Below are positions 2,854 through 32,721 of a stretch of DNA of 32,903 nt, one piece after another; positions within the stretch are counted from its first letter, which is position 1; the number at the start of each line of letters is the position of its first letter. The notes beneath the pieces are model-generated. The model had not been told where the DNA came from. It did not search any database and saw only the letters and a list, made by a program, of their open reading frames with translations. The translations under genes were made by a program, and so were the position numbers. The stretch lies in the IMG/VR virus record IMGVR_UViG_3300035672_000075, positions 1 to 32,903 of that record, one strand, 5' to 3'. This DNA comes from a virus.

Positions 2854-3081
2854 ATGACAGCAAAAACACAGAAAAAGCAATTGACCAAAGAACAAAAAGA
2901 TTTTCAGAAAGCATTTAATAACTTTTCCCGCAGCATTGATAATTCGGCTCGACTACTCAAGAAAATGGAAAATACAGGCAATCCAGATGAGCGCGCCAAA
3001 CTGATGCCGGAGCTAAAGAAATGGGGTGCTGAATATCAAAAAGCTATTGAAGCAATGGAGCAGGCACTTGGGCATCACTAG
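2854..3081 (+). CDS. Small helical hypothetical protein
   Basis: A 75-residue, lysine- and glutamate-rich protein, almost entirely helical (KEQKDFQKAFNNFSRSIDNSA and PELKKWGAEYQKAIEAMEQ), probably a two-helix hairpin or coiled coil. GGAGA stands five bases before the ATG at 2854; the upstream in-frame ATG at 2842 lacks such a site. It is second in the plus-strand early operon. No family recognised. Confidence 0.65.
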   Translation: MTAKTQKKQLTKEQKDFQKAFNNFSRSIDNSARLLKKMENTGNPDERAKLMPELKKWGAEYQKAIEAMEQALGHH

Positions 3082-3139
3082 TGCCCAATTTTTCGACTAC
3101 TAAGTAATTAAACAGAAGAGTTCTTAAGGAAACAAGATC

Positions 3140-3355
3140 ATGAGCATTTTCAATGAAGCATCAGATTTGGCGTCCCAATTGGTTTTTGGGCGCTATTACC
3201 AAACGAATGAGCCTTGCCTGAAGCTCGACAAATTAGTCTTCCTCAAGGGCGACTCGACCGAAGTCGTCACAGCTCATTCGTCATGGGCTGAGACCGCCTC
3301 CGCCATCGAGCGACTGCTCCATGCGGACTATCGACTAGTGAGCACAAATCAATGA
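3140..3355 (+). CDS. Small hypothetical early protein
   Basis: A 71-residue protein with a good ribosome site (AAGGA nine bases before the ATG). It contains the strand-forming KLDKLVFLKG and the helix SWAETASAIERLLHADY. No signal peptide, membrane segment or known motif is seen. It overlaps the next gene by four bases (ATGA), showing translational coupling. Function unknown. Confidence 0.65.
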   Translation: MSIFNEASDLASQLVFGRYYQTNEPCLKLDKLVFLKGDSTEVVTAHSSWAETASAIERLLHADYRLVSTNQ

Positions 3356-3546
3356 GTCTGCCTGAAAGGACTCGCATGTGGTCGCAGCATACATGCGAGT
3401 GGCCCATTGATCTTGACTATAACAACATCTGCGGCGTGACCGCTCACTTCAAGCAGAACGGCTACCGCTACTGCGGTGAGCATTACGACATTCACATGGA
3501 ATTAGAGAGGGACTTAGGCGAGGAACAACTGACTCTTGTGGATTAG
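3352..3546 (+). CDS. Small Cys/His-containing early protein
   Basis: A 64-residue protein, last in the early operon, with Cys15, Cys27, Cys41 and His44 (TCEW, NICGV, YRYCGEHYD). This spacing could bind one zinc ion, but it is not a recognised finger. The start overlaps the stop of the preceding gene, and an intrinsic terminator begins at its stop codon. Function unknown. Confidence 0.6.
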   Translation: MSLPERTRMWSQHTCEWPIDLDYNNICGVTAHFKQNGYRYCGEHYDIHMELERDLGEEQLTLVD

Positions 3547-22396: not shown

Positions 22397-23257
22397 ATGA
22401 AGACCGCAAGCAGCACACTAATAGCAAACCTAAAAAATAACTCTCAGTTCTATCGAGCGGACCTTTATACGATCACGCTGACGGACGGGACTGTTATCAC
22501 GTTCACGACCTACAACAAGCCGATTACGACACCCGATGCCCGGACGTTCAACCCAACGACCATCGGATTGAAGCGCACTCGGATGAGCGACAAGGTCGGA
22601 CTTGAGGTCACAACCCTCCAATTCACGATTACGGCTCGGGACCAAGACACGATTGAAGGAATTCCAGTTATGGAGTTCTTAGCGGGAGGCGGCTTCACAG
22701 GAGCACTGATTAAGTTGGAGACGGCGGTCATGCTGACCAACGTCGATGCATCAGCCGGAGTTGTAATCGAGGGAATCTGGGAGATATCCGGAGCGGACGC
22801 GATTGGGCGATCTTCAGCGAAATTCACAGCTAACGCTCTGACCAATCGCCTAAAGCAACTCATTCCCAAGCCAATCATGGGACCGTCCTGTCAGTGGGTT
22901 TTATATAGCCCCGGATGCGGACTCGACCAAAGTGCTTTTGCGGTTAGTGGAACGGTGAGAAGCGGAACCACGGCAAACAAACTGGTCTCAGGATTTTCCA
23001 ATCCTGATGGATATTTCACACTCGGAAAACTTCAGTTTACCTCGGGTGCTGGTGCGGGGAGATGGTTCTCCATTCGCATATATGCCACGGGGAACATTTA
23101 TCCCATCAAGAGTCTTGGTTTCACTCCTGCTCCCGGCGATACCTTCACCGCGTACCCCGGATGTGACAAGACCGTTTCAACCTGCAAGAACACATTCAAC
23201 AACCTCATCAACATCAATGCATACCCGAATGTTCCGGTGCCGGAGGCTGCAACGTAA
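22397..23257 (+). CDS. DUF2163/BR0599-like tail hub protein
   Basis: A 286-residue protein with the GTA gp13-like layout: an N-terminal half with strand patterns (FYRADLYTITLTDGTVITFT) and a C-terminal BR0599 domain. Four cysteines (Cys165, Cys174, Cys256, Cys263, in PSCQWVLYSPGCG and PGCDKTVSTC) match the positions that hold an iron-sulfur cluster in the related lambda gpL. It belongs to the tail hub between the distal tail protein and the tip, and is followed by the NlpC/P60 gene with a one-base overlap. Confidence 0.8.
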   Translation: MKTASSTLIANLKNNSQFYRADLYTITLTDGTVITFTTYNKPITTPDARTFNPTTIGLKRTRMSDKVGLEVTTLQFTITARDQDTIEGIPVMEFLAGGGFTGALIKLETAVMLTNVDASAGVVIEGIWEISGADAIGRSSAKFTANALTNRLKQLIPKPIMGPSCQWVLYSPGCGLDQSAFAVSGTVRSGTTANKLVSGFSNPDGYFTLGKLQFTSGAGAGRWFSIRIYATGNIYPIKSLGFTPAPGDTFTAYPGCDKTVSTCKNTFNNLININAYPNVPVPEAAT

Positions 23258-23718
23258 TGGTCCCAGCGGAACAAATATTGGAACAGCGTAAAGCCGTCAT
23301 TGCTGAGGCTCATACGTGGATTGGCACCCCTTATGCCCACATGGGCAGCCTCAAAGGCGTTGGTGTTGATTGCGCGATGATCTTGCGCGAAGTGTACGGG
23401 AAAGTTCTTTCGTGGATGAAGGACATCCACATCGCCTATTACCCGCCTGATTGGCACCTGCACCAAGCCGACGAACGTTATCTCAACATGGTCCGGCAAT
23501 ATGCGGACGAGGTTGAGGAGCCGGAGCCGGGTGACATTGTCGTCGTTAAGTTCGGACGAGCATACGCACACGGAGCAATCGTCGTTGATTACCCGACCGT
23601 CATTCATGCTTACGCGAATGCGCGGCTAGTGGTGCTTGAAGACTTCAAAGCAAACAAAGAAATTGATACCCGGAAAAAGTTGTTCTTTTCTCCGTGGAAG
23701 AAATTCGGAGAAAAGTAA
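23257..23718 (+). CDS. NlpC/P60 tail-tip peptidase
   Basis: A 153-residue cysteine peptidase. TWIGTPYAHMG and GVDCAMIL place the catalytic Cys at 39. The His is in YAHGAIVVDY (about 105), with a further polar residue at VIHAY. The family cuts the peptide stems of peptidoglycan. In GTA and lambda-like tails it stands in this position (gp14/gpK) and either aids tail assembly or opens the wall at infection. It overlaps the previous stop by one base, and the tip gene starts three bases after its stop. Confidence 0.85.
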   Translation: MVPAEQILEQRKAVIAEAHTWIGTPYAHMGSLKGVGVDCAMILREVYGKVLSWMKDIHIAYYPPDWHLHQADERYLNMVRQYADEVEEPEPGDIVVVKFGRAYAHGAIVVDYPTVIHAYANARLVVLEDFKANKEIDTRKKLFFSPWKKFGEK

Positions 23719-23720
23719 CA

Positions 23721-26700
23721 GTGGGAATTTTCAACAAGAGTGGCGGAAAGAACGTCACACAATCTCAGCAACAGCAAATCTTAGGTGCGATAAGAGTTCA
23801 GAAAGCAGCATGGGGCGGAGTCATGCCCGTTGGATGGGGACAAGGCAGGCTCCCCGGAATCATCATTGATTACACGGATTTCAAACCTGTTCCGCACACT
23901 TCGACCACGAGCACCGGAGGCAAGGGCGGAGGGCACCAGACACAGACATCCACCACATACACATATTCAGCCGCCGTTGTCATCGGTCTTTGCTGGGGAC
24001 CCATTCAAGGCATCAAGCAAATTTGGCCAAGCAGTGGGACTCTTCCGGTCGGACAAAACAGCGAGACGTTCTCAATTCCGAGCGGAGGTGGAAGCTTTAC
24101 GATTACGCCTCCCGATGGTGGAACTTTCACAGCCGATGACGGTGTTTATTGTGCGACCGCATATTCCCAAACCATTGATGATTTCGGCTCTGATGGAAGT
24201 GACACGTTAACCGGGACTCAAAACATCCCATTCGCAAAAGTGACAGGAACTCCCGCCACTGGTCAATACAAGTTGTCCGGCTCGACTTATACGTTTGCCG
24301 CTGCTGACATTGGAAAAGTCGCAACCATCAATTATTCGTACAGCGTCCCGACCACAAACAGCACCACGGGAAACCCGTTGAGCATTCAGGGGCTCACGAT
24401 CCTCACCGGAGCCAAGGGGCAAGGTGTCTGGTCTTACATGACCAGTGCTCACCCCGGCACGACTCACGCGATTGGATACACGCTTACAGCCGGAGTCGCT
24501 ACTCCAAACATGGATTTGGGAACGGATGCCACTCCTCCCAACGATACATATGAAGTTCAGTTCGGGACTCAGTTCGGCGGAGGCATCGTCGATGCGAATC
24601 CGCGAGACATCGTTAATGATGCGATAACCAATCCATTTTGGGGAACAACATTCCCGTCAGCGAATCTCGGGGACCTGACCGCATTTAGCAATTATTGCGT
24701 TGCTAATGGGATTTTTCTGTCTCCAATCATCGACACTCAGACAGCCTGCAATGATTTCATTACCCAAATTTCAACTCTTACCAATACAGGCGTTTTCTGG
24801 TCCGAGGGCAAACTCAAGTTCGTTCCTTATGGTGACCAATCGACGGTCGGCAACGGTGCGACATTCATCGCGAACACGACACCAATTTATGACCTCACGC
24901 TAAGAGATTTCCTCAATACCCAAAACGACCCGGTCACCATTGCGATAACCGAGGTCGATGAGCAATACAACGTTACAGGACTAGAGGTTCTCGACCGGAG
25001 CAACGGATATAACCCAACCGTCGTTCAGGACATGGATGATTCGGCGGTCGAAGTCAATGGACAGATTCCGGCAAGCGTTCTCTCTGCTCATGAGATTTGT
25101 TCTCAGGCGATAGGCAGAACGGTTGCGATGGCTATCAATCGACGGACCTGCAACATCGTTCGCCAATTCACATTTACGCTCGGTCTCAAATATCTCTTGC
25201 TTGAGCCCATGGACCTCGTCACCTTGACCGTCGATGGTCGAAACGATCTTCAGAGGCTCCCGGTCAGGATCATCCAAAAAGATGAGGACGAGAGCGGCAA
25301 TCTGATATTCACGGCGGAAGAGTTTCCATTCGGTTCCGCAACAACGACTCTCTATCCGACTCAGACGACGACCAGCTTTACCCACAACACCACGGCGGAC
25401 CCGGGTCTCGTAAATACCCCAATCATCTTTGAGGCGAATGACCGATTCGCTCAATTCGCGGGAAACACTCTGGTCATTGGTGTCAGCGGTTCAGACCCGA
25501 ATTATGGCGGATGCCAAGCATGGGTGAGTCAGGATGGAACATCATTCAAACAGATCGACAATGGGAGACTGTACGGCTCATCAAGGCAAGGAACGTTGTC
25601 AGCATCCTTGGCAAGTTCACCAGACCCGGACACCACTCACACACTATCTGTTGACCTCTCTGAGAGCCTCGGAATCTTAACGAGCGGCTCCGTAGCGGAC
25701 GCGGACAATTTCGTCACCCTCTGTTTTGTCGATGGAGAATTGCTCTCTTACGAGACGGCAACTCCGACAGGGTCTTTCCAATACAATTTAGGAACAAGAC
25801 TCCGGAGAGGCGTTTACAACAGCGTCATCGGAACTCATGCCATAGGGTCTAACTTCCTTCGTCTTGATAATGCTGTTCTGCAATTTCAATACGACCCAAC
25901 ATGGGCCGGCAAGACAATCTTTTTCAAATTCACCGCGTTTAACTCATACGGGAACATGGAGCAGAGCCTCTCTGAGGTGACTGCATACTCGTTCACCATT
26001 CCGGGAGCTGCTAAAGGCGCGGTCGATGCTTCAACGGGTGTATTCATCGCGTCTCAATACAGCGCGGGAATCACGGTTGATAATTCGAGCTTCGAGGCGT
26101 CGGTTGTAATCCCTCCTCCCGGCTGGAAAAACGTCAGCTCAACTCTGAGTTATGACACTTCAACTCAGCAATCCGGAACGAGGAGCCTCGTCGTCTCGAA
26201 CAACGGAGGAGGTAACGGAGCGGTCAGCGCCCGTACCTACAAAGTTGTTCCCGGCGAACAATACAAAATTGACGGCTATGCAAAGCGGGTATCCGGCACA
26301 GGCACTGCCGTGATAGCGATTGCAATGTTCGACAGCTCAAACACATTCTTGAGTTCAATCAGCGGAAGTACCACAAGCTCAAGCTGGACACGGATCACGA
26401 CATCGGGAACTGTCCCAACGAATGCAGCCTCAGCACAAATTCAATTAGTCATCACGGGCTCGGGAGCGAATGTCTCCGAGTTCGACAATATTCTCGCTTT
26501 GCGCGTTTCTTCAGCGGATGACGAAATCTCTGACGGAACGACCAAGTATGTCCCGCGCTCTGGTATCACCACAGGAACAGATGCGAGCGTTTACAACCCA
26601 AGTTTCGAGACCTTCCCGGATACTGCATCCGTTGCTGAGGGTTGGACTGCAAACTTTGACACGACCGGAACCGGAACGAGCTTTTCCAGAGGGACCGGGT

Positions 26701-28490
26701 TTGTCGGTAATTATTCCCAAACGATCACTAACAACGGGGCAAGCGGAGGCACGAGCATTGCATCGCGTCCATTCTCGGTTAAGCCGAATGCCCGTTACAC
26801 GTTTGGAGTAAGAGCGAAATCGAGCGCGGCTAATCCGGGCTCCATGTATTTCCGCGCTCTATGGTTCGCCAATGATTCTGATTTCTCAAACAGTGCGAAT
26901 ATTGGTCTCAACGACATCGTCTCCGCTGGTGGACCGACCGCGTCGAACACATGGCAGTTGTTCGGTAACGCGCCTCAACAAGTCGATTTGTCAGCAGCAT
27001 TCAACACCATCGCTATGTATTCCGATGGTCATAGCTTTACGACCGGACATGGAATCATTTCCATAAATGACTTTGGATTTTCAGCGACCTTGATGGGTTC
27101 GCAATTCACGTTTAACAACGCGCTGTTTCAACTCGGAACAGCCGACGCTAATAACGGGGTCATCTGTGGTGGACAAACGATTACATTGCCATCCGGCAAC
27201 TTTGCAACTTTCCGGATGATAGGGTCTGCAATCAGCAGCGCATCCGGTCAGTTGTCTCAAAGTTTTCAAGTAAATTACACGGACGGCACTCACGACACAT
27301 TCACACAGTCTTTCTCCGATTGGACTATAAGGGCCAGCTTTTCGGGCGAGACCGTCGCATACACCATGCCGTACCTCAATGGGACAGGCGGGAGTCATTC
27401 CAGCTTTAACGTTTTTATAAACGAATACGAATTCACTTTAAATGCTGCAAAATCGGTCAGCAGCATCGTGCTTCCGAGTAATGGGCTGGTAGTTCTATTG
27501 GCGATGACGCTGGTGCCAAGTGGAAGCGGAATCGTCGCTCCTGCAAAAGCCAAGTTTGCACGGATCATTCTGTACAACTGGGTAGGCACCTCATCCACAA
27601 TTTCTTTCGACACAGTTACCGCACAATTGGCATCGCTCAACCCGGCTGACGGAGTGGTAACAGCCAACGGCACATTATCTCCATCAGTATTAGCCGGGAG
27701 CTTTTCGTTCACTCATGACACCTCTTCATATACATGGAGTTGGTCAGGGCTCGTCATTGCCCGTTCTGATGGAACCTCACGCGGCATTTCGGACGGGAGT
27801 CAGGCGAATACGAGTCTGACATCCGGCACCACATACCTCGGTTATCCCTTTTGGGACGACACCGCGAACACTCTCGGATGGGTGAGCGGAGGACACGGAG
27901 CACAAGGGTTCTCGTTCCTAACGACCGAGCGGTCGAACATGCTCTCTCAGCTTCAAAACCTCTTTCAGAGAATTTCTCTCAGCTCTGGTCCGCTTACCGC
28001 ATCGACGACGACCTCAGGAAGTGGCAGCGGAGGCGGAGGGTTCGGAGGTTCCGGGAGTTGCGTCCGTCACACCATGCTCGTCGAGGAGCGCACTAAAGGA
28101 ATCATCCCGGCGTGGAGTTTGGAAGTTGGCGACTGGATTCGCACCAATGAGGGCGGCGGCTGGACGAAGGTCGTATATGTCCAGCAGATGCCTCAGGACG
28201 TTTTCATTCGCGTAACCGTGAATGGGAAGAGCGTCGAGGTTACCCCGAATCACCCCTTCACCGCTATGGACGAGGACTGCAAGCCGATTGACATGATGTA
28301 CGCTGCAAAGCTGTCTTGCCTGACTCAGCTATACGTTCGAGGCGGAGCGGACTTTGTTGAGGGCATACAGGTCATTAGAGACCCGAACGGGTACAAGATG
28401 AAAATCGCGTGTGAAAACATTCACACATTCTTTTCAGGCGAAGAGGAGCCTTACATCCTCACACACAACCTTCTTGTAGAAGGGACATAA
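23721..28490 (+). CDS. Tail tip/fibre protein with C-terminal Hint domain
   Basis: A 1589-residue protein starting at GTG (GGAG ten bases upstream; a GTG at 23694 is an alternative). Residues 1-450 resemble the GTA gp15/gpJ-type hub: GAIRVQKAAWGGVMPVGWG, a glycine-rich loop and SAAVVIGLCWGPIQGIKQIW. Residues about 165-215 repeat the module seen in the tail tube. At about 786-930 and 957-1120 are two jelly-roll-like, possibly sugar-binding modules (VDNSSFEAS, VYNPSFETF), followed by a third strand-rich module to about 1290. A shaft-like part (DGVVTANGTLSPSVLAG) leads to a glycine/serine linker at 1432-1446 and then a Hint domain from Cys1447. It should recognise the host surface. The Hint end is rare and is described separately. 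Confidence 0.85.
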   Translation: MGIFNKSGGKNVTQSQQQQILGAIRVQKAAWGGVMPVGWGQGRLPGIIIDYTDFKPVPHTSTTSTGGKGGGHQTQTSTTYTYSAAVVIGLCWGPIQGIKQIWPSSGTLPVGQNSETFSIPSGGGSFTITPPDGGTFTADDGVYCATAYSQTIDDFGSDGSDTLTGTQNIPFAKVTGTPATGQYKLSGSTYTFAAADIGKVATINYSYSVPTTNSTTGNPLSIQGLTILTGAKGQGVWSYMTSAHPGTTHAIGYTLTAGVATPNMDLGTDATPPNDTYEVQFGTQFGGGIVDANPRDIVNDAITNPFWGTTFPSANLGDLTAFSNYCVANGIFLSPIIDTQTACNDFITQISTLTNTGVFWSEGKLKFVPYGDQSTVGNGATFIANTTPIYDLTLRDFLNTQNDPVTIAITEVDEQYNVTGLEVLDRSNGYNPTVVQDMDDSAVEVNGQIPASVLSAHEICSQAIGRTVAMAINRRTCNIVRQFTFTLGLKYLLLEPMDLVTLTVDGRNDLQRLPVRIIQKDEDESGNLIFTAEEFPFGSATTTLYPTQTTTSFTHNTTADPGLVNTPIIFEANDRFAQFAGNTLVIGVSGSDPNYGGCQAWVSQDGTSFKQIDNGRLYGSSRQGTLSASLASSPDPDTTHTLSVDLSESLGILTSGSVADADNFVTLCFVDGELLSYETATPTGSFQYNLGTRLRRGVYNSVIGTHAIGSNFLRLDNAVLQFQYDPTWAGKTIFFKFTAFNSYGNMEQSLSEVTAYSFTIPGAAKGAVDASTGVFIASQYSAGITVDNSSFEASVVIPPPGWKNVSSTLSYDTSTQQSGTRSLVVSNNGGGNGAVSARTYKVVPGEQYKIDGYAKRVSGTGTAVIAIAMFDSSNTFLSSISGSTTSSSWTRITTSGTVPTNAASAQIQLVITGSGANVSEFDNILALRVSSADDEISDGTTKYVPRSGITTGTDASVYNPSFETFPDTASVAEGWTANFDTTGTGTSFSRGTGFVGNYSQTITNNGASGGTSIASRPFSVKPNARYTFGVRAKSSAANPGSMYFRALWFANDSDFSNSANIGLNDIVSAGGPTASNTWQLFGNAPQQVDLSAAFNTIAMYSDGHSFTTGHGIISINDFGFSATLMGSQFTFNNALFQLGTADANNGVICGGQTITLPSGNFATFRMIGSAISSASGQLSQSFQVNYTDGTHDTFTQSFSDWTIRASFSGETVAYTMPYLNGTGGSHSSFNVFINEYEFTLNAAKSVSSIVLPSNGLVVLLAMTLVPSGSGIVAPAKAKFARIILYNWVGTSSTISFDTVTAQLASLNPADGVVTANGTLSPSVLAGSFSFTHDTSSYTWSWSGLVIARSDGTSRGISDGSQANTSLTSGTTYLGYPFWDDTANTLGWVSGGHGAQGFSFLTTERSNMLSQLQNLFQRISLSSGPLTASTTTSGSGSGGGGFGGSGSCVRHTMLVEERTKGIIPAWSLEVGDWIRTNEGGGWTKVVYVQQMPQDVFIRVTVNGKSVEVTPNHPFTAMDEDCKPIDMMYAAKLSCLTQLYVRGGADFVEGIQVIRDPNGYKMKIACENIHTFFSGEEEPYILTHNLLVEGT
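28059..28487 (+). other. Hint (intein-like) domain of the tail-tip protein
   Basis: The last 143 residues show all Hint landmarks. Block A: Cys1447 in GSCVRHTMLVEE. SLEVGDWIRT follows. Block B: VTPNHPF with Thr1508 and His1511. Block F: YKMKIACENIHTFF. Block G: ILTHN with His1582 and Asn1583. Only LLVEGT follows Asn1583, with Leu rather than Cys/Ser/Thr, so normal splicing is not expected. This resembles bacterial intein-like (type B) or hedgehog-type domains, which cleave or ligate at the N-terminal Cys. Confidence 0.85.
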
Positions 28491-28493
28491 AAC

Positions 28494-28961
28494 ATGGTCA
28501 AGACATATCACACAATTGATTTTGGGGAGTGGAAATTACTCACTAAATATTTCCATCCAATTCACGGAAGCCATTGGATGGCTATTCCGGACGCAAAGCT
28601 CAGCGAAGAGGATTGGCACGACATCTTTTTTAACAACAGAGACGACGGTGTCCATCACGTCCCAGACAGTGACAACCGAATTTTTATCTCGACTCACTTC
28701 ATGGACGAGAGTTCAGAAGAGACATTCAGCGAGTTGGCTACGACCAAGGTCTCATTGCCTCACCCGATATTTCAAGGAACCGACCTCATTTGCACCCAAC
28801 ATGTAAACGAGCTGTATCCAATCTTTTGCAGTAGCGCGGCTTTGTATGACGAATTTGCAACAGATGAGGCAAAAATAGCCGCTGCTAGTCTATGTAATGT
28901 TCGCGATATCGTTACCCGGATTACCCAGTACCGTCCCGCGTTCCGCTTGAGCGTCTTCTAA
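28494..28961 (+). CDS. Unknown protein paired with the Hint tail-tip gene
   Basis: A 155-residue acidic protein three bases after the tip gene. No known motif was found, but it is rich in His, Trp and Asp/Glu in the first half (GSHWMAIPDAKLSEEDWHD, DDGVHHVPDSDNR) and has a helical end (DEAKIAAASLCNVRDIVTRI). Genes in this position are often tip chaperones or accessory receptor-binding proteins. A role in folding or modifying the Hint-bearing tip is possible. It is followed by a copy of the recurrent motif. Confidence 0.65.
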   Translation: MVKTYHTIDFGEWKLLTKYFHPIHGSHWMAIPDAKLSEEDWHDIFFNNRDDGVHHVPDSDNRIFISTHFMDESSEETFSELATTKVSLPHPIFQGTDLICTQHVNELYPIFCSSAALYDEFATDEAKIAAASLCNVRDIVTRITQYRPAFRLSVF

Positions 28962-31540: not shown

Positions 31541-31568
31541 ATTATAAATCGCGCTCACTGAGAAGCAA
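31541..31568 (-). promoter_or_regulatory. TTGCTT-16-TATAAT promoter of the DUF4177-like gene
   Basis: On the minus strand TTGCTT (31563-31568), a 16-base spacer and TATAAT (31541-31546) form a good promoter, with the ATG eight bases past the -10. The -35 lies in the 3' end of the integrase gene. Confidence 0.6.
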
Positions 31569-32721
31569 CAAGGGACATTCCTGCGCTGCTCAGCAGAATA
31601 ACGCTATCCTCGTGCATCTCTAGTTGCTTTGCAGCTCTATGGAGAGCCCGAGTCGAAATATGCGTGTAATGGCGAATCATAGCCGCTGACATATGCCCGA
31701 CTTGACTCATCATTACTTCGATGGGGAGACCCGCCTCGGCTGCTCTCGTGATGTACGTGTGTCTCAAATTGTGGAATCGGTGATTGAGTTTCAATGCCTC
31801 GCAAAGAGTTTCCCACTCACCATTCCATGAAGCTTGCGGGTGAGTTGGGTCGTAACCCGTCCTCCCGTGCAATGGGTCCGTTTCCTTGGTGTGTTTATCG
31901 AGCAGAGTCGGCAATAGGAAGTGAGTCGGTTCAGTTGCTCCCAAGCGCTTGGCACGGCTCATGAGCTTACGGAGTGCCCATACCGCGAGAGTGTCCAGCA
32001 CAACCCGTCTGTTTCCTTTTTTCGTTTTCGTGGCTGTTGTTTTCTTCCCGTCTATGTCGACAAACCGAGGAATGAGAATTTCTTTCTTGTCCAAATCAAT
32101 TGCTTTGAGTTGCAGCTTTTTTATCTCTCCGCCTCGCATGCCAGTTGCGAGAGCGAGGACGGCGGCATAAGGGGCAACAGCATTCTCGTCAGAAACCCGA
32201 GCGTATTGAACGAGCCTCTGTTGTTCCTCAGGGGTGAATGGAACAATGTCCTCGTTCTCTTCAAGCCTTAGCTTTTTGTACGTCACTTGCAGATTTGCCG
32301 CTTTTAACATGGCGGAAAGGACCGTCGTCTCGTTATTGATGGTCTTGTGTGAGGCTTCATCCTCAAGCCGCCTATCTTGGTAACGAGTGAAAGCCGTGGT
32401 GAGGTTTTTTAACTTGGTCTCCGGCTTGAGGTTTGCGACCAGATTCGCGCAAATACTTACCTCGGAGGCATAACTCCCCGGTTGGAGCCGGAGCTTACGG
32501 CTGGTCTTCCAAGCTTCGACCGCCTGTTTCAGAGTCCAATTGCCCCGCTCATTTGGGAGTTTATTTTGCTTGAGGTCAGAGAGGAACTGAGCTTTCTTGT
32601 CCTTGGCTTCCTTGTAATCACTGGTGCCCGTCGCATGGTCTTTCCAATCTCCATCCTCGGTCTTGTACTTGAAATACCAGCGGGGTCCCCGTTTATAAAG
32701 TCCATCAGTTCTCTTTGGCAT
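31555..32721 (-). CDS. int: Tyrosine-recombinase integrase
   Basis: A 388-residue site-specific recombinase for prophage integration and excision. An N-terminal arm-binding part (RWYFKYKTEDGDWKDHATG) and a core-binding helical domain (about 62-150) precede the catalytic domain. There, Arg196 (TGMRGGEI), Lys near 235 (TKTKKGNRR), His317-x-x-Arg320 (HNLRHTY), His343 (VGHMS) and the nucleophile Tyr352 (RHYTHIS) are all present, so it should be active. AAGGA stands seven bases before the ATG. The excisionase gene lies 11 bases upstream. No att site could be identified inside the window. Confidence 0.95.
   Translation of the reverse strand: MPKRTDGLYKRGPRWYFKYKTEDGDWKDHATGTSDYKEAKDKKAQFLSDLKQNKLPNERGNWTLKQAVEAWKTSRKLRLQPGSYASEVSICANLVANLKPETKLKNLTTAFTRYQDRRLEDEASHKTINNETTVLSAMLKAANLQVTYKKLRLEENEDIVPFTPEEQQRLVQYARVSDENAVAPYAAVLALATGMRGGEIKKLQLKAIDLDKKEILIPRFVDIDGKKTTATKTKKGNRRVVLDTLAVWALRKLMSRAKRLGATEPTHFLLPTLLDKHTKETDPLHGRTGYDPTHPQASWNGEWETLCEALKLNHRFHNLRHTYITRAAEAGLPIEVMMSQVGHMSAAMIRHYTHISTRALHRAAKQLEMHEDSVILLSSAGMSLVASQ

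Follow-up and report, generated by a model that had tools for sequence, protein, structure and literature searches.

Why does the tail-tip protein of a phage end in an intein-like Hint domain, and what could such a domain do with so few residues behind it? The question is raised by the window, by which we mean the whole stretch of 32,903 nucleotides analyzed here, the 32.9-kb record of a soil-type phage whose genes include those for terminase, portal, Mu F-like, tail, and integrase proteins. The tyrosine integrase gene (31555–32721, minus strand) makes a temperate lifestyle probable. The initial annotation had placed a Hint domain at the end of the tip gene, and its anatomy and coordinates proved right, the Hint proper occupying 28059–28469. 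The relevant features are as follows.

23257–23718, plus strand: NlpC/P60 tail peptidase gene (PF00877, E = 5.4e-5), immediately upstream of the tip gene
23694–28490, plus strand: tail-tip gene, 1598 aa from GTG 23694 (Phage-tail_3, Rcc01698_C, phrog_1101 tail protein)
24732–25244, plus strand: Phage-tail_3 (PF13550) domain, GTA/J-like core (E = 9.5e-21)
25584–25856, plus strand: Rcc01698_C domain, the gene transfer agent tip C-terminal domain (E = 1.8e-9)
26082–26447, plus strand: CBM_4_9 carbohydrate-binding-like domain (E = 2.1e-10), the best of two CBM_4_9-like stretches
27690–28013, plus strand: WSWSGL...YPFWDD domain before the linker, common to other Hint-tailed proteins (alignment A3 and pattern search)
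28014–28058, plus strand: Gly/Ser linker SGSGSGGGGFGGSGS in the tip translation, the N-side flank of the Hint
28059–28469, plus strand: Hint domain, type A BIL-like by alignment A4, profile, and predicted fold (Cys1, TPNH, F block CENIHTFF, THN)
28470–28487, plus strand: C-side flank LLVEGT, six residues past the terminal Asn (five in most relatives)
28494–28961, plus strand: small downstream gene, 155 aa, a divergent member of the partner family described below

The tip is GTA/lambda-J-like, with a Phage-tail_3 and Rcc01698_C core encoded behind an NlpC/P60 gene. Along the protein, the core is followed by the two CBM_4_9-like stretches, the WSWSGL domain, the linker, the Hint, and LLVEGT, and the C-terminus reads ...GSGSGGGGFGGSGS-CVRHTMLV...VTPNHPF...CENIHTFF...YILTHN-LLVEGT. 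An alternative GTG start at 23721 gives 1589 aa, the length used in the initial annotation; the first residue of the Hint and its terminal Asn are Cys1447 and Asn1583 in that numbering and Cys1456 and Asn1592 from the upstream GTG 23694. Cys1 is encoded at 28059–28061, the block B His at 28251–28253, and the terminal THN at 28461–28469 (Asn, 28467–28469), with six codons between the Asn and the stop codon at 28488–28490. The residues for self-cleavage, namely Cys1, the TPNH His, and the His-Asn end, are present, as had been claimed.

Curated models detected the domain below their cut-offs: Pfam Vint gave 17.6 bits (cut-off 27; E = 0.0036), Pfam Hint 15.6 bits (cut-off 29.7; E = 0.012), and TIGR01445 20.1 bits (cut-off 24.5; E = 9e-4). 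Since these models saw the Hint only weakly, relatives were sought. They were reached with a DNA pattern based on the WSWSGL...DG motif immediately before the linker, which found five contigs with the same Hint ending and one without a Hint (L119); two contigs, L117 and L120, carry an identical protein. The A3 profile built from the pattern matches added more viral contigs and 13 contigs of Acidobacteriota metagenome-assembled genomes (MAGs), and the resulting alignment A4 comprises 22 Hint domains over 149 positions. Single-sequence scans with the Hint or the tip core found no relatives, the VTPNHPF pattern returned only ordinary inteins and chance matches from the viral contigs, and the isolated phages in the collection searched included none with this Hint-ending family. 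Among tblastn matches of the Hint query at E = 10, the one in a Synechococcus phage translated into a CHAP-like region and no Hint, and those in plasmids were creatininases; both were rejected.

A leave-one-out Hint profile of 21 relatives, from which the window sequence was excluded, matched the window Hint at E = 7e-33, with the runner-up among the 411 window ORFs at 0.48, and a profile from the Acidobacteriota clade alone matched it at 1.6e-24. The match is well above chance, and the scores of the curated models are a sensitivity limit of those models. An AlphaFold2 model on A4 (pLDDT 90.7, pTM 0.85) had 53 PDB matches at E ≤ 0.001, and those listed were all inteins, BILs, or hedgehog. The top fold match was the Clostridium thermocellum BIL 2lwy (TM 0.77/0.82, E = 1.6e-8), followed by the Tetrahymena BIL2 and then the gp41-1 intein, with hedgehog 1at0 lower. 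The A4 family profile likewise placed 2lwy first among PDB sequences (E = 2.8e-9), and the alignment starts close to the N-terminus and reaches the His-Asn in each. Viral proteins with a matching fold, under the names Hint or fibronectin III, are already entered in BFVD. The ORF, the profile, and the predicted fold agree on a complete Hint behind a Gly/Ser linker at the end of the tip; the observation in the initial annotation is confirmed, and the interpretation attached to it is partly supported.

That interpretation had likened the domain to type B BILs. Type A BILs have a His-Asn end and no nucleophile at the +1 position, form an N-side thioester, and are cleaved on the C-side by Asn cyclisation; they can ligate their flanks through the freed amine, with cleavage products dominating (PMC4031507). 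The reviews disagree on this point, as type A cleaves and cannot ligate according to PMC7765530. Type B BILs lack intein block G (PMC4031507). Judged by its residues, the window Hint fits type A on every feature tested: it has the His-Asn end, Cys1 and the block B His are invariant (22/22), and the +1 residue is Leu, with Cys, Ser, or Thr at +1 in none of the 22 members of A4 (Ser occurs in one relative, L212). Because the terminal His-Asn, and with it block G, is present and conserved, we regard the domain as type A-like and reject the type B assignment. The other classes were rejected as well: a class 1 intein by the Leu at +1; a class 3 intein by the invariant Cys1 and by an F-block Cys that, in the alignment read by eye, is not at F:4; and a hedgehog-type domain by the lack of a sterol-recognition region, only six residues following the Hint.

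Comparison with known systems places the family more closely. It has in common with 2lwy the Hint fold, Cys1, a TxxH-like His, the final His-Asn, and the absence of both a +1 nucleophile and a homing endonuclease. It differs in being C-terminal on a phage tail tip, behind a conserved Gly/Ser linker and with five or six residues after it, whereas known BILs are located in variable regions of other bacterial proteins (PMC7765530). With phage inteins (gp41-1, terminase, helicase, RNR), among which that of gp41-1 ranks second in the PDB matches (E = 1.5e-7), it shares the fold and blocks A, B, F, and G; unlike them, it lacks a +1 Cys, Ser, or Thr (22/22 aligned), has a C-flank of five or six residues, and ends a non-conserved tail protein instead of interrupting the active site of an enzyme. 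Hedgehog 1at0 shares the Hint fold, cleavage before a Cys, and a C-terminal position in a protein that is secreted or exposed, but the window Hint lacks the sterol-recognition region and keeps the His-Asn for C-side cleavage. The Tetrahymena BUBL BIL2 (6y75, 6tmm), the second fold match, is also a BIL behind a protein ending in Gly; it is eukaryotic, and its upstream domain is a different, ubiquitin-like one. Peptidase S74-type chaperone domains of tail spikes and fibres are likewise C-terminal, self-cleaving, and removed during maturation, but they have an unrelated fold, use Ser-Lys protease chemistry, and are needed for trimer folding.

Ten of the 149 positions of A4 are invariant (n = 22): G3, G5, Cys7, G20, W41, His71, A88, L91, His142, and Asn143, where Cys7 is Cys1 of the Hint, His71 the His of TxxH, and His142-Asn143 the terminal His-Asn. 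For the 18 members of the Acidobacteriota clade, synonymous and non-synonymous differences were compared pair by pair. Three five-codon windows had no amino-acid change in any pair in spite of many synonymous changes in each: GGGSG in the linker, VTPHH in block B, and LTHNY, comprising block G and the +1 residue. The non-synonymous to synonymous ratios, which serve as a ranking and carry no test statistic because pair counts are not independent events, were 0.06 for the linker, the most constrained stretch among the relatives, 0.20 for the clade tail YTFSS, 0.80 for the Hint, and 0.81 for the preceding domain. In the tail, the +1 Tyr, +3 Phe, and +5 Ser are identical in all pairs; its ratio is low, yet not the lowest, as 17 of the 131 Hint windows are equally constrained. 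The remark that only six residues follow the Hint was correct as a count, but this end is not meaningless, since the five residues of the main clade are conserved (0.20 versus 0.80). These patterns indicate that both junctions and the residues predicted to act on them are kept while the remaining domain drifts. The conservation has exceptions: the F-block His is missing in L122 and L125, and the Thr of TxxH in L117.

The Hint ending occurs on at least four kinds of carriers: GTA-like tips of 1278–1598 aa (the window, L117, and L125); a stand-alone protein of roughly 335 aa, encoded downstream of a 794-aa virion structural protein (L122 and L139); and proteins of 775 aa (L131) and, on a 117-kb contig, 470 aa (L212). 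These carriers are unlike one another, and the ending recurs on unrelated tail proteins. The flank after the Asn is five or six residues long in nearly all of them and begins with Leu, Tyr, Val, or Pro (Ser in L212), as in LLVEGT (window), YTFSS (clade), PMQGT (L117), VVPTS (L125), and LPPGK (L131). Three contigs with relatives of the preceding domain, L119, L129, and L130, have no Hint anywhere in their whole records, and their proteins have the Gly-rich ends GGGGGGGGRGGFV, GGGFGGKGRFA, and GAFGTGGRLV, respectively. Among 80 viral relatives of the tip core, 70 are complete tips, and none of these has a C-terminal Hint.

The Hint-ending relatives are mostly Acidobacteriota phages and MAG prophages, including those of Terriglobia and Acidiferrales MAGs. 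A sample of the phylum (396 genomes) contained the close family in one genome; within the order to which that genome belongs, 17 of 95 carried it. The earlier description of the arrangement as rare thus holds for the 70 complete tips nearest by core but not for Acidobacteriota phages, in which it recurs. As an Acidobacteriota genome also encodes a relative of the window terminase at 44% identity, the window phage likely has an acidobacterial host.

Several odd Hints were also observed. In a syntenic Acidobacteriota prophage (L260:14817–16649), the tip ORF is broken by one in-frame stop, and the frame past the stop closes with Gly-rich sequence and then a divergent Hint, in which Cys1 and the His of block B are retained but the end is SN-LKAEG, with SN for HN. 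L189 has a weaker or different C-terminal Hint. On the minus strand of L159 (1465–2550), a C-terminal Hint with the end HN-TKQPEILV lies on what appears by eye to be a DUF2163/Gp84-type baseplate hub protein. An 813-aa frame in an Acidobacteriota MAG (L190:90–2528) has three tandem Hint-like stretches, and a 956-aa phage protein (L207:4090–6957, minus strand; L209:4319–7186) has two near-identical tandem Hints, each ending in VVSHNKSIPEPPP.

We propose that the type A BIL-like Hint at the end of the tip is probably active and removes itself during tip maturation, a reading based on the sequences and the predicted model. Cys1, assisted by the TPNH His, would attack the peptide bond behind the Gly/Ser linker to form a thioester. 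The terminal Asn, assisted by the neighboring His, would cyclise and release the six-residue tail. Hydrolysis of the thioester would then leave a tip with a Gly-rich end, like that seen in the Hint-less relatives, or the amine of the released tail would attack the thioester and splice the linker to the tail. Because these relatives stop at a Gly tail, we suggest that the Gly-rich end is the working state. The predicted fold and profile match, residue conservation, selection acting on both junctions, recurrence of the ending on unrelated tail proteins, and the Gly tails without a Hint support the proposal, and from them we infer that the reaction occurs, what its main product is, and that the virion benefits. 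Points against self-removal are the sub-cut-off scores of the curated models, the lost F-block His and TxxH Thr, the SN end of L260, the broken copies described below, and a Magnetospirillum BIL with Tyr at +1, the +1 residue of our main clade, which spliced only after the Tyr was changed to Cys (PMC4031507).

Alternatively, splicing could be the productive outcome. The domain would then be a mini-intein or BIL inserted five or six residues before the end, and its excision would restore a Gly tail with a short conserved end. The initial annotation had stated that splicing cannot be the purpose, which goes too far, as ligation of the flanks is possible in type A BILs even when the +1 residue is not a nucleophile (PMC4031507). 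The nearly uniform length of the flank and its conservation in the clade would suit splicing, the Ser at +1 in L212 would permit its standard form, and the Hint-less tips likewise end in a Gly tail and a few residues. Nevertheless, cleavage is expected over splicing because the +1 nucleophile is missing (0/22), and type A BILs mostly cleave (PMC4031507). There is also no resemblance between the tails of proteins with a Hint and those without one, and the constraint on the tail is matched in 17 of the 131 Hint windows. We therefore consider productive splicing unlikely.

The thioester at the Gly-rich end might instead be passed on to a second molecule, at an amine or hydroxyl, as in the transfer of hedgehog to cholesterol; a virion protein, the small downstream protein, and a host surface group were considered as acceptors. 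In favor of transfer, the fold is that of hedgehog 1at0 and of the Tetrahymena BIL2 domain, constraint is strongest at the Gly-rich donor end, and a small partner gene accompanies the Hint-tailed tips. This gene, of about 85–160 aa, adjoins the Hint gene downstream in most loci (in L121, it is located far from the Hint gene), and its members include 28494–28961 in the window, L117:6006–6347, L122:6844–7233, L131:7409–7708, L119:572–913, L129:6420–6674, and L212:1457–1738. The family has the motifs YYLTT..W at the N-terminus, NSHW, DEG.H, LPHPL, and HPLLRHRVF at the C-terminus. The window member matched the partner profile at E = 4e-5 (next, 0.5) among the 411 window ORFs and at E = 0.0032 among 32,777 ORFs, and hhalign gave 0.0018 against the partner family (0.7 for a control gene). 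The profile matched all distinct main-family Hint loci with enough flank and none of the 80 tip-core relatives, and partner and strong Hint matches fell in the identical 17 of 95 genomes of the order. We read this co-occurrence as linkage, with no sign of interaction, because both genes are in one prophage type. An obligate Hint-partner pair was considered and dropped: the next-best partner matches among the 32,777 ORFs directly follow the Hint-less tips of L119 and L129, and the Hint ends of L189 and L260 are accompanied by other small genes. As partner without Hint and Hint without partner both occur, an action of the partner on the Hint is likewise no longer claimed; since the partner follows tips with or without a Hint, we associate it with the Gly-tailed tip. 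Invariance in the partner is limited to Met1 and one His, with no Cys among the invariant positions, and its confident model (pLDDT 94) had no significant match in the PDB. The window tip has no acceptor-recognition region like that of hedgehog, with only six residues after the Hint, and transfer does not require the conserved terminal His-Asn. Transfer thus seems quite doubtful.

Two further observations concern neighboring genes. In L195, a 10-kb fragment without any Hint, a partner gene (3065–3490) lies beside an apparent terminase large subunit gene. A second downstream gene (L121:6838–7263, L122:7233–7661, L129, and others) resembles a GNAT-type acetyltransferase by eye (MHIREFVPADLE...) and clusters across 15 loci, one of them Hint-less; Pfam gave no match on the one copy tested.

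The domain could also be the decaying remnant of a selfish intein that brings the phage no benefit. Phages often carry inteins, the domain retains no homing endonuclease, and two MAG copies are disrupted, the first through an in-frame TAG (L137:2580–2584, G469) and the second through frame shifts (L188/L191/L192, G484), so some copies may be decaying. We judge this origin improbable, as the catalytic positions and both junctions are strongly constrained while other parts of the domain diverge, the terminal position is identical on unrelated carriers, and 17 of 95 genomes of one order carry the ending. That an unreactive Hint stays on the tip as a stable end domain or folding aid would agree with its small stable fold and its place as the last domain of a tail protein that is exposed but is very improbable, as it leaves the constraint on exactly Cys1, TxxH, and His-Asn unexplained.

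Self-removal is thus the reading with which we proceed. Hint chemistry and the Hint family are already known. A literature search, covering the primary BIL work via reviews, found no paper joining a Hint or BIL with a phage tail tip; what is new relative to that literature is a BIL ending on phage tail tips, a recurrent feature of acidobacterial phages with a conserved active site. Most study of BIL domains has concerned bacterial proteins that are secreted, and their purpose has yet to be settled. The recurring tip BIL and its natural Hint-less relatives make this purpose testable at the C-terminus of a virion protein. The recurring Gly linker and Hint ending suggests that a host-contacting tip may trim or re-join its own end at maturation. 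If the domain is active, intein-type self-processing would join the known maturation routes of phage receptor-contacting proteins, and if transfer were true, a part of the phage tail would be covalently conjugated by intein chemistry.
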